A stretch of DNA of 64,000 nucleotides from assembly GCA_026985075.1 (NCBI GenBank), contig JALSQX010000074.1:1-64000 (forward strand). The letters are read 5' to 3'. The position numbers and the translations under genes are program-made. The DNA comes from Blastocatellia bacterium (GTDB lineage Bacteria > Acidobacteriota > Blastocatellia > HR10 > J050). Shown here piece by piece: positions 3,146 through 20,086 of this stretch. The stretch's first letter is position 1, and every line of letters begins with the position of its first letter. The notes beneath the pieces were generated by a model. It saw only the letters and a list, made by a program, of their open reading frames with translations, was not told the DNA's origin and made no database searches.

Positions 3146-3200
3146 CGACTGAGGGAGGGGCCGGCAAGAGAGGAGCCTTTCACCAAGGAGAAGCAAAACG

Positions 3201-4676: not shown

Positions 4677-4702
4677 ATAACCGCGACGGAGCGCGCACCT
4701 TC

Positions 4703-6283
4703 ATGGCCAGCGATCATCGCACCCTGGACATTCATGCTCCGGTGGCCTCTCGGCCCCGAACGAGGGACCGGTCCCGGTATATCCTGCTCAACGCCGTGAC
4801 CAGCTATGGACGGGATATACTGGACACGATCATCTTCCTCGTCCTCATTCCCTTCATCATCAGGACGCTGGGCGAGGCCGCGTTCGGGTTATGGTCATTG
4901 ATCTGGGCGTTCCTCAGTTTGTTCGAACTGGCCGATATGGGACTCGGCACCTCGGTGGTCAAATATGTCGCCGACACCAAAGGGCGAGGCGATGACGAGG
5001 GTCAACGCAGAATCGTGTGCACGCTGTTCTGGATCTACGTCATCCTTGGCGGGCTCCTGATGCTGGGGGTGACGGCCAGCCTGGTCTTCTTCAATCGCCT
5101 GTTCGATATCCCTGCGGCCCAGGCTTCGACGGCCCGAGCGGTGTTGCTCATCCTGGGCGCTCGAGCGGCCCTCAACATGCCGCTGGGGATGTTTCGCGGC
5201 GTGCTCATCGGCTACCAGAAACTGAGCGTCGCCAATGGCTATAAGATGCTGGCTTCGATCTTCTATTTCGTCGCCGTATTGGTTTTGCTCCATCGCATCC
5301 CCGACCTGCGCCTGCTGGCCGGGCTCAACCTCCTGATGGGCGTTCTGCCCATGGCGGCGATGATGATCCATGCCAGGCGGATGATCCCCAGTCTCGCGCT
5401 TCATCCGCGATATTTTGATCGCCGCCTCATCGGCCGCGTCATGTCGTTCTCGCTCTATTTCACGCTCATACAGATTTCCGGTCTGCTGGCTACTCGCGTC
5501 GATTCGATGGTCATCAAGATGTTTCTCCCACTGGAGATGGTCGCCGTCTACGCCATCGCCATGCGGTTGTCGGAGAAGGCCAATCGTTTCTGCTCGCACT
5601 TGATCAAGACGCTCACTCCGGTGGTCGCCGAGTTACATGGAGCGGGCGAACAACAAAACATCCGCGCCGTCTGGTACCGGGGGACCAAGCTCACCGTGGC
5701 CTTCGCCTCGCCATTACTGGTTGGGCTGGCGCTTTTGGCCAAGCCCCTGGTGCTGGCCTGGACGGGACCGAACTTCCAACTCTCCGCTCCGGCACTCCAA
5801 TGGTTGGTGGCGGCGGTGATGGTGAGCATCATCCACGGCAACACGGCCAATATTCTCAGCATGGGAGGACACCAGAAATATCTGGCCTTCTCGCTGCTCG
5901 GCGGTCAACTATTGAATCTGGGATTATCTCTCGTCCTCATTCAGCGTCTGGGCATTGTCGGCGTCGCCATGGCCACGTTCATAGCGGCCCTACCGCTCCA
6001 CGTGGGACTCATCCAGACGCGGGCCGGGCGCCTTCATGGGCGCTCGCACTGGGACTTTTATCGTCAAACGGTATGGCCGAGCGTCCCGCCAACGCTGTTC
6101 ATGGCGGCCCTGCTCTATGTGCTTCAGCGGCGGTGGATGCCCTCCACTCTGTTGGAGGTAGCCGCTCAGGAAATTCTGGCCGTGCTCGCTTTTGGCGTTC
6201 TGTTCTGGTTCATTGGCTTCACGGCTCATGAGCGCGCCTATTTCAAAGCCAAGGTGATCCACCGCATCCTGCGCCGATCATGA
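4703..6283 (+). CDS. Wzx-type polysaccharide flippase (MOP superfamily)
   Basis: This 526-residue protein consists almost entirely of hydrophobic helices (12 or more), with the MOP-superfamily layout of Wzx and MurJ-like lipid-linked sugar flippases. The opening RYILLNAVTSYGRDILDTI, followed by an FIIRTLGEAAFGLWSL segment, is typical of the N terminus of polysaccharide flippases (PF01943/PF13440 type). I place the start at the ATG at 4703, with GGAG 11 bases upstream; a longer frame from 4616 would overlap the previous gene and add a hydrophilic leader. It should move undecaprenyl-linked repeat units from the cytoplasmic to the periplasmic face of the inner membrane for the polymerase encoded upstream. 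Confidence 0.85.
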   Translation: MASDHRTLDIHAPVASRPRTRDRSRYILLNAVTSYGRDILDTIIFLVLIPFIIRTLGEAAFGLWSLIWAFLSLFELADMGLGTSVVKYVADTKGRGDDEGQRRIVCTLFWIYVILGGLLMLGVTASLVFFNRLFDIPAAQASTARAVLLILGARAALNMPLGMFRGVLIGYQKLSVANGYKMLASIFYFVAVLVLLHRIPDLRLLAGLNLLMGVLPMAAMMIHARRMIPSLALHPRYFDRRLIGRVMSFSLYFTLIQISGLLATRVDSMVIKMFLPLEMVAVYAIAMRLSEKANRFCSHLIKTLTPVVAELHGAGEQQNIRAVWYRGTKLTVAFASPLLVGLALLAKPLVLAWTGPNFQLSAPALQWLVAAVMVSIIHGNTANILSMGGHQKYLAFSLLGGQLLNLGLSLVLIQRLGIVGVAMATFIAALPLHVGLIQTRAGRLHGRSHWDFYRQTVWPSVPPTLFMAALLYVLQRRWMPSTLLEVAAQEILAVLAFGVLFWFIGFTAHERAYFKAKVIHRILRRS

Positions 6284-6343
6284 GAGGAGGATACGGCAGG
6301 CGTGTCCTGATGCGTGATGCCCGCATAATGATGAGCAGGTCAC

Positions 6344-8809
6344 ATGGAAGCGAAACCGACCTATAACGATCGCATCGACGAAGCCGACGCGGGGGAGAGC
6401 CTTCCCTTCGATATCCGCACGTTCCTTCTTGGGCTCCTCCGTCGTTGGCCCATCGTCGTCATCAGCACCATCCTGTTCGCCGTCCTGGGCGTGATTGGGG
6501 CACTCCTGTTCGGATCGCGGACGTATAAGGCGGAGACGGTGCTCCTCTATAAACCATCGTCGGTGGCCGGTGCCGAAAGCGATCTGTATGTTCCACCCCC
6601 GCTGCCCACGCAACTCCATTTAGTCAAACTTCAACCTAATCTGGAAGAAGTGCGTCGGCGCTTGAAGCTCCCGGTGACGTTGAAAGCTTTGGGAGCGGCA
6701 TGTGACGTGATCGTGGAACGAAAGACGGATCTGATGATCATTCGCGTCGAATGGGATTCGCCGGATATGGCCGCCGCCATCGCTAACACCCTCAGGGATG
6801 TCTTCCTCGAGAATCAGCGTCGCATTCGTCGAACGGAAGTGGGAAAGGACCTGCGCGATCTGGAGAAGCGACTGGAGGCCATCCGCCAACAACTCAAAAA
6901 AGCCGACGCCGCCCTCAAAGAGTTCACCATGACCCATAATGTGGTCGACCTGGAGCAAGAAACGCAATGGTACCTCGATGAGTTGACGTCCATCGAATTG
7001 CTGCTCGAGCAGGCTCAGGTGGAGAAGAAAACCATCGAAAAGCAGATGAAGAACCTCGATCGCATCATCGAGGATCTCAAAAGACGCGTGGCCCGGGAAC
7101 AGGCTCAGTCGGCCCAACTCGAAGCGCTGAGCGATGTCAATTTGCGGATTCAGCGACTGCGGGAGCTCATTCAGGAAGACAAACAGTACCGGGCCCGATT
7201 GGCCGAGCTCACTCAGAAGGAACTGGAATTGGAACGCGCCAAGCGACTGTTGGCCGAGGGCCTCATCTCTGAAGTCGAGTTCGGCAAGATCAAAGCCGAC
7301 TATGAGCGCCAAAAAGCCCTGACCATCGATACCGATCAGATCAAACAGTGGAAGGCGGAGATGGAGCGGCTGGATCGCATCGTCGTCCCCAATCAAAACG
7401 GCTTGACGCCATCGGGGGAGATTCTTCAAGACATGATGCGCAAGGCCTTCGAGCTGCAACTGCAGCACGTGGCAGTGGCCGATAAAGTCGAGCATTTGAA
7501 CGAGGCGCGCGCGCGCATCAAAGCCCGACTGAACGCCCTTCCCGCTCTCCAGCGCGAGTATGTGGCCCTCAATCGCGAGGTTCAATCGCTGGAGAACGAG
7601 AAACAGCAACTGGAGAATGTCCTGGTCAAAGTCCGGCGCGTCTACGAATCTGAAGCCTCGGATTTCACCATCATCTCTGAAGCTCGCCCTCCGGTTTTCC
7701 CCAGCCAATCGAATCGAAAACTGATTTTCCTGGGCATCACCGCGCTCGGTCCTTTGATGGGCTTCTTCATCATCGTCCTGCTCGAGCTCGCCGATATGAC
7801 CATCAAATCCGGCAGCGAACTCTCGATTCGATTAGGATTACCGGTCCTCGGCGTACTGCCTCGGCTCCCGGCGGGCCGCCAACTCATTCCCGGTAAAGTG
7901 GACTCCGAACTCATCGAAGCCTTCAAAATCATCGCCCGCCGCCTCCGCTATGCCGTGCCCAAACGCGGCGCTCGCCTTCTCATCGTGAGCGCTCAACATG
8001 GGGAGGGAAAGACATCGCTCGCCGCCAATCTGGCCGCTTGTCTGGGGCGTATGGACGAGCGCGTGCTGCTCATCGATGCCCAGGTCAGATCCGGGAGCCA
8101 GCCACCATCGCTGGCCCAGATGATCCTCGCCGGAGAGATTGCCCGGAACGGCAACGGTCAGCGCCCGCTCAGTCCCATAGAAGCCGTCTTTCTCCAGCCC
8201 GTGCAAAACTTCGCCCAGTTCCTCAGACGAATGATTCCCGAAAGGACCCGGCGAGTTCTTCCTCAGATCACCCAACGTCACCCACGCCTGGCGGCCACCG
8301 CCGCTCAGGTGAAGACCTGGTTCCACCATCGATTCGAGCAGATGCGCTCGCTTCATCCCTCTACCGGCATGGCTGGCCAGCGCCACACCTTGCGCGAACT
8401 CATCGCCAACGGCCATCAATCGCTCAAGGGACTGGGCGAATATCTCTCGTTCGAGGCCGATGAGGTTGATGAAGTCATCTGGCCGACCCAGTTGGCGGGC
8501 GTCGAGTGTTTGCCGCGAATCAAGGAACCGGTCATTCCCGATCTCCTCGGTTCACAACGCATGCGGGCACTGCTCGACGAAGTGTCCTCGCGATTCAGTC
8601 TGATCCTCATCGATGCCCCACCTGTTCTCCCCTACGTTGATGCCGAGCTCCTGGCTCAATGGTGCGACGCCGCGATCTTTGTCGTGCGAAGTCGCATGTG
8701 CCGGGTGGGCACACTTCGTCGAGCCCTCGATCGGTTACGGGCCACCGGCGTTCCCATCATCGGCGCTCTCCTCAACGGCGTTGATCCTCTCTATTTGGAA
8801 GAGATGTGA
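6344..8809 (+). CDS. Wzc-like chain-length ATPase, divergent BY-kinase domain
   Basis: This 821-residue fusion has a Wzz domain with two membrane helices (about 35-60 and 460-482), a long periplasmic coiled coil (about 165-440) and a cytoplasmic P-loop domain. Walker A is GEGKTS (553-558) and Walker B is LILIDAPP with Asp757. Walker A' reads LLIDAQVR (Asp578), so the second Asp of the usual DxDxR motif is Gln580. Walker A' and B Asp residues are 179 apart, against roughly 80 in known bacterial tyrosine kinases, so about 100 residues are inserted (about 585-690). The C terminus (LYLEEM) has no tyrosine cluster. It probably controls chain length and export; autokinase activity is doubtful. Confidence 0.85.
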   Translation: MEAKPTYNDRIDEADAGESLPFDIRTFLLGLLRRWPIVVISTILFAVLGVIGALLFGSRTYKAETVLLYKPSSVAGAESDLYVPPPLPTQLHLVKLQPNLEEVRRRLKLPVTLKALGAACDVIVERKTDLMIIRVEWDSPDMAAAIANTLRDVFLENQRRIRRTEVGKDLRDLEKRLEAIRQQLKKADAALKEFTMTHNVVDLEQETQWYLDELTSIELLLEQAQVEKKTIEKQMKNLDRIIEDLKRRVAREQAQSAQLEALSDVNLRIQRLRELIQEDKQYRARLAELTQKELELERAKRLLAEGLISEVEFGKIKADYERQKALTIDTDQIKQWKAEMERLDRIVVPNQNGLTPSGEILQDMMRKAFELQLQHVAVADKVEHLNEARARIKARLNALPALQREYVALNREVQSLENEKQQLENVLVKVRRVYESEASDFTIISEARPPVFPSQSNRKLIFLGITALGPLMGFFIIVLLELADMTIKSGSELSIRLGLPVLGVLPRLPAGRQLIPGKVDSELIEAFKIIARRLRYAVPKRGARLLIVSAQHGEGKTSLAANLAACLGRMDERVLLIDAQVRSGSQPPSLAQMILAGEIARNGNGQRPLSPIEAVFLQPVQNFAQFLRRMIPERTRRVLPQITQRHPRLAATAAQVKTWFHHRFEQMRSLHPSTGMAGQRHTLRELIANGHQSLKGLGEYLSFEADEVDEVIWPTQLAGVECLPRIKEPVIPDLLGSQRMRALLDEVSSRFSLILIDAPPVLPYVDAELLAQWCDAAIFVVRSRMCRVGTLRRALDRLRATGVPIIGALLNGVDPLYLEEM

Positions 8810-8820
8810 CGAGACGAACC

Positions 8821-10110
8821 ATGAAGATCCTGGTCATCTCCAATCTCTATCCGCCGCACGTGTTGGGAGGCTATGAGATCCTCTGCGGTCAAGTGTGCGG
8901 CGAGTTGCAGCAGCGAGGACACGAGGTGACCGTCCTCACCAGTCGATATGGCTGGGACGGCGATGCGCCCACCGGCGATACGTTGGAGCCGCCATCGAGT
9001 CCCCGAATATGTCGAACTCTTCGGCTCTATCTCCCCTTCGATCGTCCTCCGCAACTCCTCAGGCGGCGCCGATGGCTGGTCGGCACGTACAACTATCGTC
9101 GGACCCGGGAGTGCCTGCGGCACGTTCGCCCCGACGTCATCTTCATATGGAGTCAACTTCGGCTCACCGTTGGACCAGCGCGCGCCGCTCAAGCCTCGGG
9201 CTATCCAGTGGTGTACACCTTCAATGACGAAAACATCGCCAGTTATTTCCCCGCTCGTTTCAAGCTCACGCCCCGGGGGCTGATCGCCTACATCCTCGAT
9301 CACTGGGTTGTCCCCAGCATCACGCTCAAGGGATTGAGGTTCGACCATGTCACCTGCATCAGCCGGTGCGTGAAGCGGAATTTGATCGCCAAAGGATTAC
9401 CCATTTCTCACGCTCGGGTCATCTACCAGGGCATTCCCATAGAGCAATTCCCTCCCAAAGCCAACATGGGGCGTATCCACCATCCGGCCCGCCTGCTCTA
9501 TGTCGGACAACTCCACCCCTACAAGGGCGTCCACACGCTCATCGAAGCGGCTCATCGGATAGCAGAAAGCAGAATCGGCGACGCCCGCGCTTCCTCCGTC
9601 CGCTTCTCTGTCACTATCGCCGGCGACGGCCCTGAGCCTTATAAGCGACAGCTCGTCGATATGGCTGCTCATGGAGCGGCGGTCATCGAGTTCAAAGGGA
9701 AAGTCCCCCACGCCGAGTTATCGTCCCTCTATCGGGAACATGATCTTTTCGTCTTCCCCTCTATCTGGCGAGAGGCATTTGGCCTGACCCACCTGGAAGC
9801 GATGGCCTCGGGCATTCCGGTCATCAGCACGGCCAATGGCGGCCAGGGCGAATTCCTCCGACATGGCCACAATGCCCTCATCTTCGAACCGGGGAACGCC
9901 CATCAACTCGCCGAACGCATTGATCAATTGTTGCGCGATGCTACCCTGCGACGGCGACTGGCCGAACGAGCGCGCGCGCTGGTGGAACGCCAGTTCACAC
10001 TGAAACGATATGTCTCGGAGCTGGAGACGTTCCTCCAGGAAGCCGTGGTCGTGGCGAGACGGGAGAGCGTCGCCGGCTTTCTTCCACGCGCCGTGACCCC
10101 CTCAGGATAA
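8821..10110 (+). CDS. Glycosyltransferase family 4 (GT-B fold)
   Basis: This 429-residue cytoplasmic glycosyltransferase shows both Rossmann halves of a GT-B enzyme. The N-terminal motif MKILVISNLYPPHVLGG marks the acceptor domain. The C-terminal domain carries RLLYVGQLHPYKGVHTLIEA and the E-x7-E motif EAFGLTHLE, which contacts the nucleotide-sugar donor. A GTG at 8806 that overlaps the stop of the Wzc-like gene would add five residues. I prefer the ATG at 8821 because it begins the first beta strand as in other family members. Donor and acceptor sugars cannot be read from the sequence. It is the first of four consecutive GT4 genes, which suggests a repeat unit of at least four or five sugars. 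Confidence 0.88.
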   Translation: MKILVISNLYPPHVLGGYEILCGQVCGELQQRGHEVTVLTSRYGWDGDAPTGDTLEPPSSPRICRTLRLYLPFDRPPQLLRRRRWLVGTYNYRRTRECLRHVRPDVIFIWSQLRLTVGPARAAQASGYPVVYTFNDENIASYFPARFKLTPRGLIAYILDHWVVPSITLKGLRFDHVTCISRCVKRNLIAKGLPISHARVIYQGIPIEQFPPKANMGRIHHPARLLYVGQLHPYKGVHTLIEAAHRIAESRIGDARASSVRFSVTIAGDGPEPYKRQLVDMAAHGAAVIEFKGKVPHAELSSLYREHDLFVFPSIWREAFGLTHLEAMASGIPVISTANGGQGEFLRHGHNALIFEPGNAHQLAERIDQLLRDATLRRRLAERARALVERQFTLKRYVSELETFLQEAVVVARRESVAGFLPRAVTPSG

Positions 10111-10120
10111 CGCGTGGCCT

Positions 10121-11407
10121 ATGGATATCGTACACATTCCACGGCGATTCACTCGACAGGACTGGGGTGGAACGGAGACCGTCGTCCTGGAAACCTGTAA
10201 GCGGCTGCTCCGGATGGGGCATCGGACGGAAATCCTCTGCCCCAACGCTCTCGCCCAGAATGACTATGAAGTCATCGAAGGCGTTCCCGTGCGTCGCGTT
10301 CCCTATTTCTATCCCTACTGGCGGCTCCGTCCAGAAGCCAAACGCCAACTCGATAAGAAAGGAGGCAACCTCTTCTCGTTCGCCCTCATGAAGGCCTTGC
10401 GGGACTATCCTCACCTGGATCTCATTCATCTGCACACGATGAAGCGCGTCGGGGGCATCGGTCGATATGTGGCGCGACAACGACGCATCCCCTACGTCGT
10501 CTCGCTTCACGGAGGCGTTTACGATGTTCCCGCCGAAGAGGCCCGGAGTTGGACGGCTCCCACCGAAGGAGCCATCGAATGGGGGAAAGTGCTCGGTTGG
10601 TGGGTGGGCTCTCGCCGCGTTCTGGCGGATGCCGCCGCCATTCTTTGCGTTGGTCAACGCGAGCAAGAAGAAACACAACGCCGCTATCCGCACAAGCGGA
10701 TCATCCACCTCCCCAACGGCGTTGATCCCGATCGGTTCGCCCGTGGCGACGGCGCCAGATTTCGTCGCCATCATGGCATCCCCCCCGCGGCTCGCGTCAT
10801 CTTGACCATGGGGCGCATCGATCCGCAAAAAAATCAACGCCTGGCCGTCCGCGTCTTACCGGAACTCCTCAAGACTGATCCGCATGTGCATCTCCTTCTT
10901 ATCGGGCCGGTGACCAATGAAGCTTATCACCGCGAGCTCGTCGACGAAGTGCGTCAACGGGGTATCGAGCGGCACGTGACCATCATCCCCGGACTGGAGG
11001 CCGGGAGTCAAGATCTGGTCGATGCCTATCACGCTGCTGATGTCTTTCTGTTGCCTTCCATTCACGAGCCGTTCGGCATTGTGATTCTGGAGGCCTGGGC
11101 GGCCGGGCGACCGGTCGTGGCCAGTCGTGTTGGTGGCGTCCCGTCATTCGTCGTTCATGGGCGCGATGGTCTCCTGTTCGATCCTCACGATGAACGGGCG
11201 TGCGGGCAGGCCATCAGCGAACTACTCGCCCATCCCCAACGGCGACGATCGCTCGCCGAAGCGGGCCGAGCGAAAGCTCGACGGGAGTATAGCTGGGACC
11301 GCATCACCGAGCGACTGGTCGATATCTATCAGGAGGTCATCCGTGAGAATCCTCTTCGTCAACGAAAAATGTGGGTTCTTCGGTGGCGTCGAACAGAATA
11401 TTGCTGA
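10121..11407 (+). CDS. Glycosyltransferase family 4 with overlapping 3' end
   Basis: This is a 428-residue GT-B glycosyltransferase. The N terminus MDIVHIPRRFTRQDWGGTE carries the glycine-rich acceptor-side loop. The donor domain has VILTMGRIDPQKNQ (about residue 228) and the E-x7-E motif EPFGIVILE. The frame runs on for about 22 residues, rich in Arg and Trp, beyond the GTG start of the next gene. The family domain appears to finish near DRITERLVDIYQEVI, so the tail is probably a by-product of reading through the next start region. It is transcribed with its neighbours; the specific sugar is unknown. Confidence 0.87.
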   Translation: MDIVHIPRRFTRQDWGGTETVVLETCKRLLRMGHRTEILCPNALAQNDYEVIEGVPVRRVPYFYPYWRLRPEAKRQLDKKGGNLFSFALMKALRDYPHLDLIHLHTMKRVGGIGRYVARQRRIPYVVSLHGGVYDVPAEEARSWTAPTEGAIEWGKVLGWWVGSRRVLADAAAILCVGQREQEETQRRYPHKRIIHLPNGVDPDRFARGDGARFRRHHGIPPAARVILTMGRIDPQKNQRLAVRVLPELLKTDPHVHLLLIGPVTNEAYHRELVDEVRQRGIERHVTIIPGLEAGSQDLVDAYHAADVFLLPSIHEPFGIVILEAWAAGRPVVASRVGGVPSFVVHGRDGLLFDPHDERACGQAISELLAHPQRRRSLAEAGRAKARREYSWDRITERLVDIYQEVIRENPLRQRKMWVLRWRRTEYC

Positions 11408-12539
11408 TACCGTCGAAGGGCTCCGCGCTCGAGGACATCAGTGTTTCCTGGCTTACGCCACGACCACCGATCGTGGCGCGACGACCTACAAGGCGCTGTT
11501 CGATGGCTGCTTCCCTTGCCTCGAGCTGGCTGACGGCCAGAATACCCAGGCTACATACGCCTTCGAAGTGATCCTCAATCGCGTCGCACCGGATGTCGTC
11601 TACATCCATAAGGCAGCGGATGTGGCATTTTGCGAACCGTTTTTCTCTACGGTACGCTTCGTCCGGATGGTCCACGATCACGACCTCTGCTGTCCGCGGC
11701 GGCACAAGTATTACCTGTTGAACGGCCGCGTGTGTCATCACAAAGCCGGCTGGCGATGCTATCTGGACGGCGCATTCCTGGCGCGGACGCCGACGGGCGT
11801 GACGTGGGTCAGCATCGGTCGCAAGCTCAAGGACATGCACCGCCATCGCCGGTTAGATGCGTTACTGGTGGGAAGTCGATTCATGAAGCGAGAGCTGGTG
11901 CAAAATGGATTTCCCGAAGAGAAAGTTCACATCGTGCCCCCCGTCGTTCGCCTGGAGCATCTTCGACCATCTCCCCTTCCCGATGAGCCACGCCTCCTCT
12001 ACGTGGGACAGCTCATTCGAGGCAAAGGCGTCGATCTTCTCCTTCGGGCGCTCACTCACGTCAGATGCCCCTTCACGGCCACCATCGTCGGCACCGGTAA
12101 TGCTGAGCCGCACCTTCGCGCCTTATGCCATCGATTGGGGCTCGACGAACGAGTGCGCTTTCAGGGATGGGTCGATCACGATGATCTCGATCGGTTCTAT
12201 CGCGAGGCCAAGGTCGTCGCCGTCCCCTCGCGCTGGCCGGAACCCTTCGGGTTGATCGGTCTGGAAGCCATGCATCACGGACGCCCGGTCGTCGCTTTCG
12301 CCGTCGGCGGCATCCCCGACTGGCTGGTCCACGACGTGACCGGATTGCTCGTCCCCGAACAAGATGTCGTCACCTTTGGAAAAGCGGTGGAGCGGCTCCT
12401 CACTCATACCGACATGGCGGCCAGCTATGGTCGGGCGGCACGGGAACGTGTGCAAAAGCATTATTCATTCGAGCGATATCTGGATCGACTGGAAATCCAT
12501 TTGAGCGGTCAAACGTCCCGGATCGCGCTGGTCGTGTGA
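11343..12539 (+). CDS. Glycosyltransferase family 4, GTG start
   Basis: This 398-residue GT-B enzyme starts with GTG (VRILFVNEKCGFFGGVEQN), preceded by a strong AGGAGG ribosome-binding site about 6-7 bases upstream. The frame itself is open from 11127, but nothing before 11343 matches the family. The N-terminal domain contains an unusual cysteine-rich stretch (DHDLCCPRRHKYYLLNG, with further Cys soon after) of the kind seen in some GT4 enzymes near the acceptor site. The donor domain shows PRLLYVGQLIRGKGVDLLLR and EPFGLIGLE. It overlaps the previous gene by 65 bases in another frame, which is long for this compact operon. Confidence 0.87.
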   Translation: MRILFVNEKCGFFGGVEQNIADTVEGLRARGHQCFLAYATTTDRGATTYKALFDGCFPCLELADGQNTQATYAFEVILNRVAPDVVYIHKAADVAFCEPFFSTVRFVRMVHDHDLCCPRRHKYYLLNGRVCHHKAGWRCYLDGAFLARTPTGVTWVSIGRKLKDMHRHRRLDALLVGSRFMKRELVQNGFPEEKVHIVPPVVRLEHLRPSPLPDEPRLLYVGQLIRGKGVDLLLRALTHVRCPFTATIVGTGNAEPHLRALCHRLGLDERVRFQGWVDHDDLDRFYREAKVVAVPSRWPEPFGLIGLEAMHHGRPVVAFAVGGIPDWLVHDVTGLLVPEQDVVTFGKAVERLLTHTDMAASYGRAARERVQKHYSFERYLDRLEIHLSGQTSRIALVV

Positions 12540-12555
12540 AAGGAGAGAAAGATCC

Positions 12556-13704
12556 ATGAACATAGGAATCACGACGTTTGGCGCTGATGGAGGCAAGTCG
12601 GGGATCAGCCAATATGTCATCAATTTGCTCAACCAGTTTGCCCGCGCCGAGAATGGGACTCATTTTGAAATCATCGTGTATGAGGATGAGCAGTCGCTCT
12701 TCGTTCCCCCCGCGACGCACTTCACCGCGCAGTGTCTGAGCGGCCGATGGCGTCATCCGGTACTCAATATCGCCTGGCACCAACTGGCGCTCCCGCGGTG
12801 GTGCCGGAAGCGAGGGTACGACGTTCTCTTCCTCCCCGCCGGGAATAGACGGCTCCCATTCTCCGTGCCCTGTCCGACGGTGGGAACGGTCCATGATCTT
12901 TCCAGCCTCCATGTAGAGGACAAGTATGATCCGGCACGCCTGTTTTACATCACCCGCGTGCTTCCTCTCCTCATTCGACGACTCACGCGCGTGCTCACCG
13001 TCAGCGAGAGCAGTAAGCGCGACATCGTTGAGTACGCTGGCGTCCCCGAAGATCGCGTCCACGTGACGCCGCTGGCCGCCAATCGCGATCTCTACCATCC
13101 GCGCGATCGCCAGAGTGCTCTCGCTCGCACGGTCCCTAGATATGGCTTGCGGCCTCCTTACATCCTCTATATCTCTCGAATTGAACATCCGGGCAAGAAT
13201 CACGTTCGTCTCATTCGGGCCTTCGCTCGATTGAAGGAGAGCGAAGCGCTCCCCCACCAACTCGTCCTCGCCGGCAGCGACTGGATGCGCGCCGATGAGG
13301 TGCACCGGGCGGCGGAGATGTCGGGCTACGCCGATGACATCGTCTTCACCGGATTCGTGCCCACGGAAGACTTGCCGGATCTTTACTGTGGCGCTGACGT
13401 CTTCGTCTTCCCCTCTCTTTATGAGGGCTTTGGATTGCCCGTGCTGGAGGCGATGTGTTGCGGCATTCCGGTCGCCTGCTCGAACATCTCGTCGATGCCC
13501 GAAGTCGCCGGCGACGCCGCGCTCCTCTTCGACCCTTACGATGAAGAGGCTATCGAAGAGGCCCTGCGAGAACTCCTCACCGATCCCGAACGGCGAGCCT
13601 ATTACGCGCAGCGCGGTCTGGAGCGAAGCCAGCGCTTCACCTGGTCGGCGACGGCGGCCCGCACACTGGAGGTGCTTCGCGTCGCTGCCGAAGAAGGGCG
13701 GTGA
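12556..13704 (+). CDS. Glycosyltransferase family 4 (mannosyltransferase-like)
   Basis: This 382-residue GT-B glycosyltransferase has a clear ribosome-binding site (AAGGAGAG) ahead of the ATG. The N terminus MNIGITTFGADGGKSGISQY carries the glycine-rich loop. Other family features are TVGTVHDLSSLH in the acceptor domain, LTVSESSKRDIVEYAGVPED at the domain boundary, and SLYEGFGLPVLEAMCCGIPV, which contains the E-x7-E motif. This subgroup (WbaZ-like) contains many mannosyl- and rhamnosyltransferases, but the donor cannot be assigned here. The gene lies 16 bases after the previous GT and 90 bases before the sugar-transferase start. Confidence 0.88.
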   Translation: MNIGITTFGADGGKSGISQYVINLLNQFARAENGTHFEIIVYEDEQSLFVPPATHFTAQCLSGRWRHPVLNIAWHQLALPRWCRKRGYDVLFLPAGNRRLPFSVPCPTVGTVHDLSSLHVEDKYDPARLFYITRVLPLLIRRLTRVLTVSESSKRDIVEYAGVPEDRVHVTPLAANRDLYHPRDRQSALARTVPRYGLRPPYILYISRIEHPGKNHVRLIRAFARLKESEALPHQLVLAGSDWMRADEVHRAAEMSGYADDIVFTGFVPTEDLPDLYCGADVFVFPSLYEGFGLPVLEAMCCGIPVACSNISSMPEVAGDAALLFDPYDEEAIEEALRELLTDPERRAYYAQRGLERSQRFTWSATAARTLEVLRVAAEEGR

Positions 13705-13794: not shown

Positions 13795-14541
13795 ATGGTC
13801 GCGAGAGCTTCTCATACTTTCCCATCGGTGAACCGCATCGAATTGATGGAAGAACTCTATCGCCGGTATGGTCAGGGAAACATCCGCCGTCGCCTTCGCT
13901 ATTGGCGAAAGAAGTACGCCTGGATTCTCGTCGTCGGCGGGGCGCGCGCGCTGAAGCGCCTCATCGACATCGTGGGAGCAGCCGTCCTGTTGGTCGTGTT
14001 ATCTCCGCTCTTCCTGGTCGTCGCCGTGTTGATTAAGCTGACCGATGGGGGTCCGGTGCTCTTCTGGCAAACGCGCGTGGGCCAATGGGGACGAGAATTC
14101 CCCTTCCCCAAATTCCGATCCATGGTCGTCAACGCCGAAGAATTGAAGGATCAACTGTTGGCCCACAACGAGCATCAAGACGGGCGCATCTTCAAGATGA
14201 AGAATGATCCTCGCGTCACCTGGATTGGCCGCATCATCCGTAAGTTCAGCATCGATGAGCTACCCCAATTGTGGTGCGTGCTCAAAGGCGATATGTCGCT
14301 GGTGGGACCACGCCCGCCGGTCCCCCGCGAGGTTGCCGAATATACGCTGGCCGATCGGCGCCGACTGGACGCCAAACCCGGCTTGACCTGCATCTGGCAA
14401 GTGAGCGGTCGCAGCGATATTCCCTTCGACAAGCAGGTGGAACTCGACGTGCAGTATATCGAGAGTCAAAGCTTTTGGCTCGATCTCAAATTGTTGCTCA
14501 AAACCATTCCCGCCGTTCTCCTCGGCAAAGGAGCGTATTGA
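13795..14541 (+). CDS. Polyprenyl-phosphate sugar-1-phosphate transferase, intact
   Basis: This 248-residue monotopic enzyme transfers a sugar-1-phosphate from an NDP-sugar to undecaprenyl phosphate, the first membrane step of repeat-unit synthesis. It has one hydrophobic re-entrant helix (about 57-80), then DGGPVLFWQTRVGQWGREF, PKFRSM, and the catalytic Asp154-Glu155 dyad in FSIDELPQLW. KGDMSLVGPRP and PGLTCIWQVSGRS follow. It is a short form lacking the extra transmembrane domain of WbaP. I chose the ATG at 13795 (AAAGGAAAG upstream) over a GTG at 13777. It is the only one of three sugar-transferase-like domains in this operon that keeps the catalytic dyad. Confidence 0.9.
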   Translation: MVARASHTFPSVNRIELMEELYRRYGQGNIRRRLRYWRKKYAWILVVGGARALKRLIDIVGAAVLLVVLSPLFLVVAVLIKLTDGGPVLFWQTRVGQWGREFPFPKFRSMVVNAEELKDQLLAHNEHQDGRIFKMKNDPRVTWIGRIIRKFSIDELPQLWCVLKGDMSLVGPRPPVPREVAEYTLADRRRLDAKPGLTCIWQVSGRSDIPFDKQVELDVQYIESQSFWLDLKLLLKTIPAVLLGKGAY

Positions 14542-14542
14542 G

Positions 14543-15784
14543 ATGATGAACCGCCAGCGGTCATGGGCTCGGCTCATGGCGGGCCTCATGGGCCTCATCC
14601 TGGTCATCGTCCCACTGAGAGGCGAGACGACAGCTTCGCCGAGGGGATCGACGCCCCTCGATCCTCCAGCCGTCTATCTGACCTGGCAACATGATCCGAC
14701 GAGCACCATGACTGTTCTCTGGCATACTTCGTCAGTGAGTGAGGACGTCATCCAGTATTGCCGGTCTGATGAACGGATGTGGCACACGGTCACGGGCTCA
14801 CACCGTCCTCTCCCCTTCTCCGATCGAATCGTTCACCTGGTGGAGCTCACCAATCTCGAGCCGGCAACGGATTATCGCTTCCGGTTCGGCGATCATTCGG
14901 TGGAGTTCGCGTTCCGTACGCTGCCGCGCACATTGCGCGAACCGATGCGATTCGTCGTCGGTGGAGACACCATGCAGCGTGTCGAGTGGTTTCGGGAGAT
15001 GTGCCGTCGCGCGGCGCAATACGATCCCTGGTTCGCTATCATCGGCGGCGACATCGCTTATGCCGACGGTGATCCAACCAAAGTCGCGCGATGGATGGAG
15101 TGGTTCACTATCTGGAAACAGACCATGGTGACCTCGGATGGGCGACTCATTCCCTTGCTGGCCGTCATCGGTAATCACGAGGTTTCCGGTGGCTTCAATC
15201 AACGGCCCGATCAAGCGCCTTTCTTCTACAGCCTGTTTCCACTGCCCGTATCGCGAAGCTATCGCGTGCTGGATTTCGGAAACTATATGAGTCTCGTCTT
15301 CCTGGATTCCCAGCACACTCAGGCGATTGCCGGCGCGCAAACTGATTGGCTGGCCGAACGACTGGCCGAACGATTCACGGTTCCCCACCTTTTCGTCGTC
15401 TCCCATGTACCCGCTTATCCATCAGCGCGACCTTTCGACTACTGGGTGAGCGTGAAGATCCGCAAATACTGGGTGCCGCTCTTCGAGCAATTTGGCGTCG
15501 ATGTCGTTTTCGAGCATCACGATCACACCTATAAGCGCACTCATCCCATTCTGGCTGGCGCAGTGAATCCACAAGGCATTGTATATCTCGGCGATGGAGC
15601 CTGGGGCGTGCGGACTCGCCCGCCTCGCCAGGACTGGTATCTGGCCGAGACGGTCGCTCGACGCCACTTCATTCTGGTGACGATCGATAATGAAAAGCGC
15701 CGATTCGAGGCCATCGACCATCAAGGGGTCGTATTCGACCAGATGGAGCAAACGGTTGCTTCAGGACTCATGTCCACCCCATAA
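14543..15784 (+). CDS. Secreted purple-acid-phosphatase-like metallophosphoesterase
   Basis: This 413-residue exported protein has an N-terminal signal peptide (hydrophobic core LMAGLMGLILVIV, residues about 13-26) and a fibronectin-like domain (about 35-125, ending in LEPATDYRFRFGD). A calcineurin-like phosphoesterase domain follows. Metal-binding motifs are present in order: VVGGDT, IIGGDIAYADGD, VIGNHE, VVSHVPAY and a C-terminal FEHHDHTYKR in place of the common GHxHxYER. Two adjacent ATGs (14543, 14546) lie right after the previous stop. It sits between sugar-transferase genes. A role in removing phosphate from a periplasmic glycan or lipid-carrier intermediate is possible but unproven. 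Confidence 0.82.
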   Translation: MMNRQRSWARLMAGLMGLILVIVPLRGETTASPRGSTPLDPPAVYLTWQHDPTSTMTVLWHTSSVSEDVIQYCRSDERMWHTVTGSHRPLPFSDRIVHLVELTNLEPATDYRFRFGDHSVEFAFRTLPRTLREPMRFVVGGDTMQRVEWFREMCRRAAQYDPWFAIIGGDIAYADGDPTKVARWMEWFTIWKQTMVTSDGRLIPLLAVIGNHEVSGGFNQRPDQAPFFYSLFPLPVSRSYRVLDFGNYMSLVFLDSQHTQAIAGAQTDWLAERLAERFTVPHLFVVSHVPAYPSARPFDYWVSVKIRKYWVPLFEQFGVDVVFEHHDHTYKRTHPILAGAVNPQGIVYLGDGAWGVRTRPPRQDWYLAETVARRHFILVTIDNEKRRFEAIDHQGVVFDQMEQTVASGLMSTP

Positions 15785-15833
15785 CGTCGATGCGCCGGGG
15801 ATGACGCCATCAGTCATCGTGGGAGAAGATACG

Positions 15834-17258
15834 ATGTCGACTCATCCGATCAGCCGTCCCACCCCGGAGTATGTCAAGGAAGAACTCTACCGGCGTTTCT
15901 CTCGTCGAGGATTACGGCGACAGCGGTTGAGGCGATGGGTGCGCGGGTTGAGTTGGGTCCTCGTCGTTCAGCTCCTCTCCGGCACCAAGCGCATCATGGA
16001 CATGCTGCTGGCCATGAGTGGATTGATCATTCTCTCGCCGCTCCTCATGGTCAGTCTCGTCCTCCTGGCTAGTCACCTCATCGCCCTCGAACGGCGTCCT
16101 CGCGTCGGCCGCTGGTGCCAGACCTTCGACGAATACCGATTCACGTTGCCCGACACGACCTGGGGGCGCCTGTTGAAGCTCGTTCGCTTCCATCGCCTTC
16201 CCGTTCTGCTCAACATCCTCAAAGGCGACATGTCTTTTGTCGGGCCGCGTCCGGTCTCTCCCGGAGCGCTGAGTCCTCGTGAGCGCGCCGTGCGCAAGCG
16301 ATATGACGTGCGGCCGGGACTCGTTTGCCTGTGGTGGATTCGCCGACGCGCCAACATCGATTACGGTACGGAGATCGAAGCCGACGGCGAGTATGTGGAG
16401 ACACAGAGCGTTCTCGGTGACCTGGGCATCGCGTTGCGCGCCATCCCGGCGATTCTCTATGGCGAAGGCGTGGCGACCGCGCCGGATCTGGTGACCATCC
16501 TCAACATTCCCATTGATAACGTGACCATGGCCGAGGCCATCGAAATCATCATGAACCTGCTCGACAGCCAACATGGTCACCAAATCTGTTTCGTCAATGC
16601 CGATTGCGCTAACATCGCCTATCGCGATGAGGAGTACCTCCATATCCTCCGCCGCGCCGATTATGTATTTGCTGATGGGATCGGGTTGAAGTTGGCGGGC
16701 AAGTTGCTCGGTCAAGAAATCAAGCAGAATGTCAATGGAACTGACCTCTTCCCGCGCCTCTGCCAAGCGCTCGCCGACACGGGGAAGAGCGTGTTCTTGC
16801 TCGGCGCTCGCCCTGGGATAGCCGAGCGGGTCCGCGATTGGATCGCCCAATACGCTCCTGGCGTTCGGGTCGTCGGCACGCAACACGGCTACTTCTCGCG
16901 GGAAGAAGAGGCTGCCATCATCAACCGCATCGCCAATTCCCAAGCCGACCTGCTCCTGGTCGCTCTGGGTGCTCCCCGACAGGACAAATGGATTCATCGG
17001 CATCTACACGAGACCGGCGTCAAAGTGGCCATGGGCGTGGGCGGCCTGTTCGATTTCTACTCCGGGCGCATCCCGCGAGCCCCCCTCTGGATGCGCGAGA
17101 TGGGCCTGGAGTGGCTCTATCGGTTCATTCAGGAACCGAGGCGCATGTGGAAGCGATACTTTGTCGGCAACGCCGTTTTTCTCTTTCGCGTCATCAAGGA
17201 ACGATTCACGAACTCGACAATCCGAACCGGTGAGTGGCGGGAAACGATGCCCAGATGA
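15834..17258 (+). CDS. Fusion: degenerate sugar-transferase domain plus WecG/TagA/CpsF glycosyltransferase
   Basis: This is a 474-residue two-domain protein. Residues about 50-215 align with polyprenyl-phosphate sugar transferases: KRIMDMLLAMSGLIILSPL, then KGDMSFVGPRP and RPGLVCLWWIRRR. The KFRSM segment is missing, and the catalytic Asp-Glu is replaced by His120-Arg121 (VRFHRLPVLLN). The C-terminal part (about 225-460) is a complete TagA-type domain with FVNADCANIAY, FADGIGLKL, NGTDLFPRL, LGAPRQDKW and GVGGLFDFYSG. The start at 15834 follows a GGGAG site; a longer frame extends back into the previous gene. The TagA part should add a sugar to a lipid-linked primer, and the dead N-terminal part could anchor it at the membrane. 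Confidence 0.85.
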   Translation: MSTHPISRPTPEYVKEELYRRFSRRGLRRQRLRRWVRGLSWVLVVQLLSGTKRIMDMLLAMSGLIILSPLLMVSLVLLASHLIALERRPRVGRWCQTFDEYRFTLPDTTWGRLLKLVRFHRLPVLLNILKGDMSFVGPRPVSPGALSPRERAVRKRYDVRPGLVCLWWIRRRANIDYGTEIEADGEYVETQSVLGDLGIALRAIPAILYGEGVATAPDLVTILNIPIDNVTMAEAIEIIMNLLDSQHGHQICFVNADCANIAYRDEEYLHILRRADYVFADGIGLKLAGKLLGQEIKQNVNGTDLFPRLCQALADTGKSVFLLGARPGIAERVRDWIAQYAPGVRVVGTQHGYFSREEEAAIINRIANSQADLLLVALGAPRQDKWIHRHLHETGVKVAMGVGGLFDFYSGRIPRAPLWMREMGLEWLYRFIQEPRRMWKRYFVGNAVFLFRVIKERFTNSTIRTGEWRETMPR

Positions 17259-17273
17259 GGGCCGGGACACCAA

Positions 17274-17310
17274 GAAGGTGATCGGACATGAGCGACGTTG
17301 GATCACCTTC
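17274..17310 (+). promoter_or_regulatory. Perfect 10-bp hairpin between operon genes
   Basis: GAAGGTGATC at 17274-17283 is matched exactly by its reverse complement GATCACCTTC at 17301-17310, leaving a 17-base loop. No T-run follows, so it is not a typical intrinsic terminator. It lies in the 184-base gap between the TagA fusion and the three-domain protein, the longest gap within the polysaccharide operon. It could stabilise a processed mRNA end, pause transcription or bind a protein. Confidence 0.5.
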
Positions 17311-17442
17311 GCTTCGACGACATCGTGTTCGGACGCTCTCGCCGCGCCGAACGCCCGATATCGAGGAGTCATTCACCTGACCGCTGCCAGGCGAGTTTGA
17401 TCGCTACGCCATCATGCATTCTGTTTGAGGAGGATTGCTACG

Positions 17443-19017
17443 ATGAGAGCTATTGTGATGGCCACGGGCCTGCATCCTGATATCGCAGCCTTGACCGAAC
17501 GGCATCCGGCACCGATGCTCCCCCTGATCGACCGCCCTTTCATTCAACATGTGGTCGAGTATCTCGTCGATCAAGGCGTCACCGAATTCGATTTCATCTT
17601 GAGTCATCTCCCCGAGCAGATCGAACATCTGCTCGGCGATGGTCGGCGGTGGGGCAGCCGATTTCGATTTCACCTGGCTCGAGATCCAATCCGTCCCTAC
17701 GCGCTACTGAGAATGATCCTCACTGGCGAGCAAAAGGACGAGGAGGATGCCCCTCTTCTTCTCGTCCATGCGGACCGATTGCCTCACGTTCGGGTCGAAC
17801 AGACCACTCCTTCCCCCCCCACCACCCTTCCGGTCCTGTTCACCTGGCGTGATCCCTCACGGTCCGGTCCCGAGGACAAGAAGCCTCAGTGGACGGGATG
17901 GGCCTGGATCTCGAGCCATTTGATGCACCGTCTCCCTGAGGAGAGTGACGAGGAGGCGCTCGAGCAGTACCTTCGGGAGCACATGACCGATGAGGACTCA
18001 CACACTGTAGAGGTCCCCCACTGTCTCAGCGTGCGATCGTTCGAAGAACTGCTGGCCGCCCAGCGCACTGTATTAGACAAAGCCTTCCCCGAGCTCCTGC
18101 TCTCGGGCAGGGAGATCGAACCGGGCATCTGGCTGTCGCGGAATGTCAGTCTTCATCCCACGGCTCGACTCATCCCTCCGGTTTATGTGGGGCGCAATTG
18201 TCGCATCGGCGAGGGGGTACAACTGGGCCCCTACGCTGTTGTCGGACATGATTGTGCACTGGATGCCCGCTGCGTGGTCTCCGAATCGGTCATTTTCCCC
18301 GGCAGTTATGTTGGAGAGGCACTGGAACTCGATCACGTCCTGGTGGACAAGAATCGACTCGTCAATGTGCGCCTGGGGGCGGCCGTCTCGATCGCCGATG
18401 ACTTCATTCTCGGCAGCCTCTCAGAGAGCGCCCTTCACTCCTGGATAGCGGGCCTGCTCTCGCGCCTGCTCGCTGCCAGCATCCTGATCTTCACCTGGCC
18501 GCTTCTTTTGTTGACCGCCCTCTATGTGAAGCTCACGCGGCCCGGAGCCGTCGTACAGAAGAGAGAGGTCGTCGCCCTCCCCACCACTCCTGATGAAGCC
18601 CAATGGCGCACGTTTCCGCTCTGGAGTTTCGCTCTCCCCGCCGATCAACCGGAGCGGCCGCGCGATTGGGGATGGCGGGGGCCGTCGGATCTATTGCTCC
18701 GCGCTCTCCCGGCATTGATCAATATCGCCCGCGGCGAGCTGCGGTTCGTCGGCGTCTGTCCCCGCACGCCGGAGGAGATTCGAGCACTCCCCCACGATTG
18801 GCGAGAGCTTTATTTGCGCACCAAGGCGGGGTTGATCACCGAAGCCTTCGTCCACTATGGCGCTCATCCTGATGAGGACGAACTCTACTCGGCCGAGGCC
18901 TTCTATTCGGTGATGGCCAGCCTGCGCCACGACGTGAGCTTGATACTCGGCGCCCTGGGGCGATTCCTCAAGGGAACGAGCGCTCGCCCCATCGCCCTGG
19001 AGCAACAGGAGAGTTGA
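17443..19017 (+). CDS. Three-domain pseudo-enzyme: nucleotidyltransferase-like, left-handed beta helix, sugar-transferase-like
   Basis: This 524-residue protein starts at an ATG after GAGGAGG. Residues 1 to about 210 follow the NDP-sugar pyrophosphorylase pattern (MRAIVMATGLHPDIAALTE, then HPAPMLPLIDRPFIQHVVEY). The GGxGTR loop is lost and the PKP lysine is Ala. Residues about 225-320 are hexapeptide repeats of a left-handed beta helix (IGEGVQLGPYAVVGHDC). Residues about 335-515 begin with a hydrophobic helix and then resemble the sugar-transferase C terminus (ALPALINIARGELRFVGVCP, then KAGLITE). The catalytic Asp-Glu position is Arg420-Ala421. It is probably non-catalytic and may act as a scaffold or allosteric partner of the intact transferase. 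Confidence 0.75.
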   Translation: MRAIVMATGLHPDIAALTERHPAPMLPLIDRPFIQHVVEYLVDQGVTEFDFILSHLPEQIEHLLGDGRRWGSRFRFHLARDPIRPYALLRMILTGEQKDEEDAPLLLVHADRLPHVRVEQTTPSPPTTLPVLFTWRDPSRSGPEDKKPQWTGWAWISSHLMHRLPEESDEEALEQYLREHMTDEDSHTVEVPHCLSVRSFEELLAAQRTVLDKAFPELLLSGREIEPGIWLSRNVSLHPTARLIPPVYVGRNCRIGEGVQLGPYAVVGHDCALDARCVVSESVIFPGSYVGEALELDHVLVDKNRLVNVRLGAAVSIADDFILGSLSESALHSWIAGLLSRLLAASILIFTWPLLLLTALYVKLTRPGAVVQKREVVALPTTPDEAQWRTFPLWSFALPADQPERPRDWGWRGPSDLLLRALPALINIARGELRFVGVCPRTPEEIRALPHDWRELYLRTKAGLITEAFVHYGAHPDEDELYSAEAFYSVMASLRHDVSLILGALGRFLKGTSARPIALEQQES

Positions 19018-19087
19018 AGAGGATGGAACGAGGCGGACAGCAGCCGAGCGTTCATCGACGCAACCAAATCCGAGGAGCGTGAATCTT

Positions 19088-20086
19088 ATGAGTTCGGTAC
19101 CCTCTCGGCGAACGATGACGACCCTGGAATCCCATCCCACATCGGGTACGACGGATCGGCAAACCGTGCTTCGGCTTCGGCGTCGGGCCATCGAGCTCGG
19201 ACACCTGGAAGCCTGGCTCACTCAAGGGCGAGGCTCATTCCACTTCGAAAATGTGCGCGCCCTCCGATCTCTCCTTCGCTTCGGACTGCGGGTGATGGGA
19301 CTGCTCGCGCGCGGCGAACGAAACGCGCTCCATCCGGTAGTGCGCGAGATTCGACTCGCCTTTCCCCGGCTTCCGGAGGCATTTTGCGGATTCCGACTCC
19401 TCCACCTTTCCGACCTCCACGTCGATGCCATCGCTGGCTTCGCCGATGCCGTTGCTGACCGGCTTCAATCGCTCCAGGTGGACCTCTGTGTGCTGACCGG
19501 CGATTATCGCTTCGAAGTGTATGGTCCCTGTCACAACGTCTACGCCAACATGGAGAAAATTCTCCGCCACATCCGCGCTCGCGAGGGGATCGTCGGCATT
19601 CTGGGTAATCACGACTTCGCCGAAGAAGCCGTCGAGCTGGAACGCATGGGCGTGCGCATGCTGGTGAACGACGCCTGGGAACTCCGACGGCATCAGGAGA
19701 GCCTGTGGTTCATCGGCCTGGACGATCCCCATTACTATGGCTGTGATGATCTGTCCGGCGCCATGACGAGGGTTCCCGACGAGGCGTTCAAAATTCTCCT
19801 CGTGCATACGCCGGAACTCTTCCGAGAGGCGGAAGAGTACGGCATCGACCTCTACCTCTGCGGTCACACTCACGGAGGACAAATCTGTCTGCCGGGCATC
19901 GGCCCCCTGCTCGTCAATGCGAGCTGCCCGCGCAAATATACCCGCGGCGTATGGCGGTATAAAACCCTCACCGGGTACACCAGCTCGGGCGTGGGATCAT
20001 CCCTGCTGCCGGTTCGGTTCAACTGTCCACCAGAAATTGGCCTCATCGAATTACGCTGTCCGCGTCATCATGCTCATCGATTGTGA
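19088..20086 (+). CDS. YkuE-like calcineurin-fold metallophosphoesterase
   Basis: This 332-residue protein has all the metal-binding motifs of the YkuE/LpxH-like metallophosphoesterase group. They are LLHLSDLHVD (about residue 103), VLTGDYRFE, GILGNHD, LLVHTPELF and LCGHTHGGQICLPG. The first 90 residues are basic and poorly conserved, with a weak hydrophobic stretch near the middle, so the protein may associate with the membrane. An ATG at 19088 with GAGGAG about 10 bases upstream is preferred over a GTG at 19079. Known relatives hydrolyse phospholipid-type or isoprenoid phosphoesters; here it ends the polysaccharide operon and may act on a polyprenyl phosphate or lipid, by inference. Confidence 0.82.
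   Translation: MSSVPSRRTMTTLESHPTSGTTDRQTVLRLRRRAIELGHLEAWLTQGRGSFHFENVRALRSLLRFGLRVMGLLARGERNALHPVVREIRLAFPRLPEAFCGFRLLHLSDLHVDAIAGFADAVADRLQSLQVDLCVLTGDYRFEVYGPCHNVYANMEKILRHIRAREGIVGILGNHDFAEEAVELERMGVRMLVNDAWELRRHQESLWFIGLDDPHYYGCDDLSGAMTRVPDEAFKILLVHTPELFREAEEYGIDLYLCGHTHGGQICLPGIGPLLVNASCPRKYTRGVWRYKTLTGYTSSGVGSSLLPVRFNCPPEIGLIELRCPRHHAHRL

Follow-up and report, generated by a model that had tools for sequence, protein, structure and literature searches.

Monotopic phosphoglycosyl transferases (PGTs) commit the limited pool of undecaprenyl phosphate to each surface polysaccharide, and the control of this step is mostly unknown. Among the large enzymes of this type, WbaP homodimerises through a four-transmembrane (4-TM) bundle together with a domain of unknown function (DUF) (PMC10942596), and in Myxococcus xanthus the PGT EpsZ is activated by direct contact with the phosphorylated form of EpsW (EpsW~P) (PMC12802240). 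GMPPB is regulated by its non-catalytic paralogue GMPPA, to which GDP-mannose binds (PMC11228364), while in Vibrio fischeri the regulator SypA acts on biofilm formation below the level of transcription via an unknown protein target (PMC10120452), the protein target of HmpV in Nostoc being unknown likewise. The present report concerns three genes, here called ST1, ST2 and ST3, which lie between positions 13,795 and 19,017 of a 64,000-nucleotide stretch of DNA from a Blastocatellia bacterium of the phylum Acidobacteriota (GenBank assembly GCA_026985075.1, contig JALSQX010000074.1, positions 1 to 64,000 of the forward strand; the whole of this stretch is referred to below as the window). They encode one predicted active PGT and two multidomain proteins whose PGT domains have lost their catalytic residues. 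This arrangement, which recurs elsewhere and often adjoins a protein on/off switch, suggests a regulated apparatus for the start of sugar-chain synthesis of a kind not described before, and we consider it probable, though well short of certain, that the products make up a membrane-bound, regulated hetero-oligomer that initiates an exopolysaccharide of the Wzx/Wzy type, with separate roles for docking, for addition of a second sugar, for regulation through ST3 and for switching by a STAS protein.

ST1 (13795..14541, + strand) is a predicted active monotopic PGT of the short form, 248 residues long. It covers the whole of the Pfam profile Bac_transf (E 6e-68), and an alignment with Salmonella WbaP over 200 residues places its Asp154-Glu155 (codons at 14254..14259, + strand) on the catalytic Asp-Glu of WbaP and finds the KFRSM motif intact, this motif being the UDP-sugar site, in which the Met takes part in nucleotide binding (PMC12550135). 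There is an N-terminal extension, and the EPS_sugtrans profile is covered only in its C-terminal positions 252-445; judged by this coverage and by the length of the chain, ST1 has neither the 4-TM bundle nor the DUF of the large monotopic enzymes. The catalytic dyad is kept in all 32 ST1 sequences, drawn from two phyla, which places them among the monotopic PGTs, and within these they form a clade of their own (SH-aLRT support 96), separate from 30 other acidobacterial PGTs (the L066 chain described below being excluded). Scored against an ST1 profile, ST1 sequences reach 294-460 bits and other PGTs at most 236 bits. Given the established biochemistry of the PGT family, the role best supported for ST1 is that of the priming enzyme. 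The original prediction had held that ST1 is the only one of the three proteins to keep the dyad, and this proves true well beyond the window, since the dyad is intact in none of 16 ST2 and none of 34 ST3 proteins.

ST2 (15834..17258, + strand; 474 residues, with the start codon set by the orthologue in the same-genus genome G001) joins a pseudo-PGT (residues 1-215; Bac_transf E 2.7e-28) to a glycosyltransferase of the TagA/WecG/CpsF family (residues 218-460). The latter is a complete Glyco_tran_WecG domain (E 3.6e-68), and among solved structures TagA of T. italicus (PDB 7mpk) comes nearest to it. Where the alignments would place the catalytic Asp-Glu there is H120-R121 (16191..16196, + strand); the Glu of the dyad is missing in all 16 ST2 proteins and KFRSM is lost in every one, so that the description of ST2 as an inactive transferase fused to TagA can stand. 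In the TagA half the catalytic residues Asp65, Asn39, Gln167, Arg214 and Arg221 (TagA numbering, taken from PMC6493773) are kept in 10 of 10 sequences, Asp65, Arg214 and Arg221 corresponding to D281, R430 and R437 of ST2, as in members of the TagA/WecG/CpsF family generally. Thr37 is replaced by Phe and Arg83 by Asn, again in 10 of 10, which sets ST2 apart from TagA proper, the N-acetylmannosamine transferase; since both of these residues are changed, donor and acceptor are probably other than those of TagA. The combination of kept catalytic residues and changed Thr37 and Arg83 makes it likely, on sequence grounds, that this half of ST2 is a working glycosyltransferase with a specificity of its own. 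As to origin, ST2 looks like a duplicate of ST1 that became fused to TagA, because the two share the N-terminal extension and because ST2 profile scores are higher on ST1 (133.8) than on other PGTs (108.9).

ST3 (17443..19017, + strand; 524 residues) combines in one chain a degenerate sugar nucleotidyltransferase (residues 1-215; 17443..18087, + strand), a left-handed beta-helix of hexapeptide repeats (18088..18417, + strand) and a pseudo-PGT (18424..19014, + strand). The N-terminus resembles sugar nucleotidylyltransferases, and its assignment comes from a structural model, a fold match and a table of motifs. An AlphaFold model, which is confident in the first 210 residues only, gives a predicted confidence (pLDDT) of about 80-90 in the nucleotidyltransferase domain, and over residues 1-323 it is matched by MurU, GMPPA/GMPPB and eIF2B-epsilon (VIA-align Z about 21), i.e. 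by the nucleotidylyltransferase/GMPP fold, with a root-mean-square deviation of up to about 7 Å when both domains are aligned. The beta-helix is recognised by Pfam (Hexapep, E 6.4e-11; LbH_EIF2B) as well as by this fold match. No ST3 N-terminus listed retains the motifs of working nucleotidylyltransferases, namely the GxGTR loop and PKP lysine (2 of the 24 sets being cut off at the loop by domain trimming), whereas ordinary nucleotidyltransferases nearby (e.g. in L040 and L064) keep the two. In the pseudo-PGT, for which the Bac_transf match is very weak (E 4.8e-8), the position of the dyad is occupied by R420-A421 and the proline of the re-entrant helix is kept; across the set the dyad is absent in 34 of 34 ST3 proteins and KFRSM in all. 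This again agrees with what had been proposed, namely an inactive transferase fused to a nucleotidyltransferase-like and beta-helix module. A recent duplication of ST1 is not favoured as the source of the ST3 pseudo-PGT, which has lower profile scores on ST1 (33.8) than on unrelated PGTs (median 45.8); to judge from its sequence the domain may descend from a chain like that at L066:8740-10473 (+), where a nucleotidyltransferase (GGQDTHL in place of GGxGTRL, with PKP kept), a beta-helix and an active PGT occur in one protein. That chain, the sole ST3-like one with an intact dyad and different in kind from ST3, is possibly an ancestor-like form.

Judged by sequence, the re-entrant-helix proline, at which this membrane helix is broken, is kept in 31 of 31 ST1 sequences, in 15 of 16 ST2 and in 34 of 35 PGT domains of the ST3 set (L066 included). 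The PGT domains of ST2 and ST3 appear to be homologues of PGTs rather than PGT enzymes, and with both the dyad and KFRSM lost they would be unable to prime. When the window is compared with its congener G001, dN/dS is 0.136 for the pseudo-PGT of ST2 and 0.120 for that of ST3, while within ST3 the nucleotidyltransferase gives 0.269 and the beta-helix, its most constrained part, 0.039; the intact domains give 0.032 (ST1) and 0.103 (TagA). Every dead domain is therefore under purifying selection between these two genomes.

The cassette, carried by some bacteria of soil and sediment, recurs in about 35 loci of Acidobacteriota and Desulfobacterota, a lower bound on its spread, the public species collection having been scanned with short exact peptides. 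Full-length ST3 is present in 7 of 97 relatives, and that collection has it on nine contigs, Deltaproteobacteria records among them; about ten of 396 Acidobacteriota genomes have the full-length chain (13 if any ST3-type match is counted), as do about 14 of 395 in the Desulfobacterota-like phylum to which L043 belongs. The original prediction stood to fall if the trio were absent from other genomes or its members came and went at random. What is found is quite different: full-length ST2 is present in 11 of the 396 Acidobacteriota genomes, all of them within the 13 positive for ST3 (hypergeometric P 9.5e-20), and among 98 relatives an ST1-type PGT is present in 8 genomes, identical to the 8 that have ST3 (P 6e-12), a perfect match which, given the gap in score between ST1 and other PGTs, is not an artefact of the cut-off. 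In a survey of all PF02397 domains in 20 relatives, the weak or degenerate ones are the ST2 and ST3 of the five cassette genomes plus a short fragment in G003. ST1 and (in most Acidobacteriota) ST2 adjoin ST3 in the same gene order. In Desulfobacterota, ST2 is rare (2 of 395 genomes) and ST1 with ST3 alone is common, so ST2 is optional and an obligate trio is ruled out: the conserved core is ST1 plus ST3, which in Acidobacteriota is commonly joined by ST2. The proposed three-protein arrangement thus survives as a recurrent and co-occurring one, though not as an obligatory set.

The genes are also closely coupled. Overlaps of 4 bp are seen between ST2 and ST3 in L034, L061 and L063, and between ST1 and TagA and again between TagA and ST3 in L113 and L114, while in L118 a pseudo-PGT, TagA and an active PGT make up a single open reading frame of 663 residues, amounting to a fusion of ST2 with ST1. 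Pairwise distances in the ST1, ST2 and ST3 trees are correlated with r of 0.82-0.91 over 14 genomes, or 0.81-0.91 once rpoB distance is removed, as against 0.25-0.35 when the three trees are compared with that of rpoB (the 14-genome comparison is preferred, because in a set of 23 the rpoB of G657 forms a wild branch). The co-varying trees show joint inheritance, in part through horizontal transfer, and are not in themselves proof of contact between the proteins. The Desulfobacterota-assigned genome G552 provides a separate observation: at L109:1476-9198 (+) it has three glycosyltransferases in the order of the window, of which gt_b is 63% and gt_d 61% identical, followed by a PRK/uridine-kinase-family gene in the place of ST1 and then by ST2-ST3, two further ST1-ST3 pairs being present in the same genome. 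The pattern resembles that of an operon transferred in its entirety, or else of mis-binning.

Annotation of flanking genes first revealed SpoIIE phosphatases next to several cassettes, and profiles for SpoIIE, HATPase_c_2 and STAS were built from the genes found there. At least one of these three partner-switching components is present in 22 of 36 distinct cassette loci, whereas 20 PGT genes outside cassettes, from related genomes, have none closer than about 8 kb (Fisher P 1.8e-6), the usual order within one operon being SpoIIE/HATPase, STAS, ST1, (ST2), ST3. SpoIIE lies no more than 5 kb from the cassette in 15 of 26 genomes, where 0.47 would be expected from its genome-wide density (P 1e-20). 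In L113:7448-8998 (-), L114:5078-6628 (-) and L119:1608-3155 (+), a protein made up of TagA/WecG and two STAS domains occupies the position, flanked by ST1 and ST3, that ST2 has elsewhere; in L032:5676-8081 (+), SpoIIE, HATPase and STAS form a single chain of 802 residues whose gene overlaps that of ST1 by 4 bp. The STAS phosphoacceptor motif DS[SAM]G is found in all stand-alone STAS proteins from the loci of the relatives, and every TagA-STAS fusion has DS[ST]G in one or both of its STAS domains, the first STAS of L113 and L114 being without it. At L043:10001-13270 (+) an ST3 has its own SpoIIE/HATPase and STAS (the gene that follows resembles, by eye, a sulfate adenylyltransferase), and a separate contig of that genome (L119) carries ST1, TagA-STAS and another ST3. 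The presence of a partner switch beside most cassettes, which the original prediction did not include, points towards phospho-regulated gating.

In the mechanism that we propose, ST1 would prime, and the dead PGT domains of ST2 and ST3 would act as docking and regulatory subunits for it. ST2 would thereby bring its TagA-type glycosyltransferase, which is intact, up to the fresh undecaprenyl-diphosphate-linked sugar, to which a second sugar, whatever the identity of either, would be added; ST3 would serve for regulation, keeping its dead nucleotidyltransferase and beta-helix close to the active site, with a metabolite or another protein as candidate ligand. Precursor sensing, one of the functions that the original prediction gave to the complex, would be no more than a possibility for this module, its nucleotidyltransferase having lost the GxGTR loop and PKP lysine in each ST3 looked at. 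A dephosphorylated STAS protein would bind the complex, presumably through ST3 or ST1, and so turn initiation on or off. The physical assembly of such a complex, with its stoichiometry and any allosteric effect, is something that we infer: gene order, the 4-bp overlaps, the co-varying trees and the one-chain ST2-ST1 fusion are what favour a hetero-oligomer. The pattern of kept and lost residues in two phyla, the purifying selection on the dead domains, the retained catalytic residues of TagA, the re-entrant-helix proline, the single-chain L066 protein, the partner-switching genes and the precedents of GMPPA and EpsW speak for the scheme as a whole. Direct gating of exopolysaccharide initiation by a STAS system that binds the oligomer of active and dead PGTs is put forward more tentatively, as a proposal somewhat less likely to be right than wrong.

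Several observations weigh against this scheme. Many Desulfobacterota cassettes have no ST2, so that as originally proposed, i.e. as one enzyme plus two fused pseudo-enzymes, the complex gains from the overlaps, the L118 fusion and the co-occurrence, but has to be cut back to a core of ST1 and ST3 with ST2 optional and to be given a probable partner-switching input; the original interpretation is thus supported in part. ST1 was not seen beside ST2-ST3 in L109, nor with ST3 in L043/L120 or in L111, the last of which lies at a contig edge. Co-variation of the trees would also be expected of an operon that moves as a block, and the AlphaFold models of ST2 and ST3 are of low confidence in their pseudo-PGT parts and give no reliable fold there. 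Nor is the partner switch universal among cassettes, the more divergent loci having none nearby: no switch gene is present in the DNA read of G001, L035, L037, L045, L064, L065, L067, L109, L112 and L118, or in the window, where no SpoIIE, HATPase_c_2 or STAS component occurs in the 64 kb. Not being adjacent in the genome of the window, the switch would there need to work at a distance or have a substitute.

Of the alternatives, the one that survives best concerns the switch itself, whose genes could serve transcription control as an anti-sigma system and be merely co-located with the cassette. The classic targets of STAS/RsbW/RsbU-type modules are indeed sigma factors, and the STAS proteins here have the usual phosphorylatable serine motif; however, TagA itself is fused to STAS in L113, L114 and L119, the fused SpoIIE-HATPase-STAS chain of L032 overlaps ST1, and SypA in V. 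fischeri works below transcription (PMC10120452), all of which leave this explanation on the unlikely side while still deserving to be taken seriously. Less likely again is that the dead PGT domains are mere membrane anchors for TagA and for the nucleotidyltransferase/beta-helix module, neither a specific complex with ST1 nor allostery being involved. Retention of the re-entrant-helix proline in domains that have lost their catalytic motifs is what an anchor would show, and enzymes of the TagA family do associate with the membrane (PMC6493773), but TagA has a membrane-binding C-terminal appendage of its own, the residues of which are kept in ST2, and a generic anchor would need neither strict co-occurrence with one ST1 clade nor 4-bp coupling nor an ST2-ST1 fusion.

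A third possibility is that ST3 is enzymatic, either because its beta-helix is an acyl- or acetyltransferase acting on the first sugar or because its nucleotidyltransferase works with a rearranged loop. Many beta-helix domains are acyltransferases, and no other part of ST3 is as constrained as its beta-helix; against this, residues 1-323 taken together match GMPP and eIF2B-epsilon best, and no ST3 listed has the GxGTR loop or PKP lysine that its ordinary neighbours in L040 and L064 possess, which makes this explanation quite improbable. The beta-helix of GMPP and eIF2B-epsilon is not known to be an acyltransferase. Finally, that ST2 and ST3 are functionless, decaying duplicates hitch-hiking in a mobile polysaccharide operon, as their missing catalytic residues, patchy distribution and departure from the rpoB tree (r 0.25-0.35 in the trio set) might suggest, is scarcely credible given dN/dS of 0.04-0.27, reading frames intact in all loci read and non-catalytic motifs of the dead domains invariant across two phyla, the first two of these being enough to rule out decayed pseudogenes.

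The surroundings of the cassette in the window fit a role for the proposed initiation complex in polysaccharide synthesis. Upstream of ST1 (1670..13704, + strand) lie, all on the same strand, a Wzy_C/O-antigen-ligase-type gene (1670-3145), a Wzx-like flippase (4616-6283), a Wzc-like co-polymerase/kinase (6344-8809) and GT4-type glycosyltransferases (8806-13704), from which the operon is taken to be of the Wzx/Wzy type. Between ST1 and ST2 is a purple-acid-phosphatase-like gene (14543..15784, + strand; Pfam PF16656 and PF00149), which separates the two only in the window and in the same-genus G001, is missing from the other cassette loci and is therefore outside the conserved cassette. Directly 3' of ST3 is a YaeI-like metallophosphoesterase (19079..20086, + strand), with homologues 40-43% identical in three Desulfobacterota loci (L109:9305-10228, L117:9260-10120 and L119:4845-5705), so that such a gene adjoins the cassette in both phyla. 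The nearest regulators in the window begin about 4 kb downstream of ST3 and are hybrid histidine kinases: the segment 22855-32569 encodes two of them, which have Hpt domains, together with a receiver-domain protein and another kinase, the third, with multiple receivers. They are a possible stand-in for the partner switch that the window lacks.

A literature search of partial coverage turned up no paper on dead PGT subunits, so that an earlier mention is possible. As far as the literature found goes, the complex proposed here would, if real, be the first case of pseudoenzyme-based control of the PGT step, and, through its STAS-gated architecture, would hint at what protein SypA and other STAS regulators act on; the STAS/HATPase/SpoIIE neighbours make the question of target for SypA and HmpV directly testable with small, expressible proteins.

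Set beside the large monotopic enzymes (WbaP, WcaJ, EpsZ), ST1 is alike in that its catalytic domain aligns with WbaP and with the C-terminus of EPS_sugtrans/EpsZ; it differs from WbaP in having no 4-TM bundle or DUF and in that its likely partners are dead paralogues and not a second copy of itself. The EpsZ-EpsW pair offers the parallel of an initiating PGT with a switching partner (here a proposed one), but EpsW is a single receiver domain, whereas here there are dead PGTs and often STAS/HATPase/SpoIIE. With TagA/WecG/CpsF enzymes, EpsA included, the C-terminal half of ST2 shares the fold family and most catalytic residues; it differs from TagA in its Phe for Thr37, its Asn for Arg83 and its fusion to a dead PGT. 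GMPPA/GMPPB and eIF2B-epsilon have the same nucleotidyltransferase plus beta-helix fold as residues 1-323 of ST3 (Z about 21), although in ST3 this is fused to a dead PGT and the GxGTR loop and PKP lysine have been lost. SypE-SypA of V. fischeri and HmpU/V/W of Nostoc likewise tie a STAS protein, a kinase and a phosphatase to a polysaccharide locus; the difference is that here the switch is encoded together with the initiating PGT and the dead PGTs, with STAS sometimes fused to the second glycosyltransferase.

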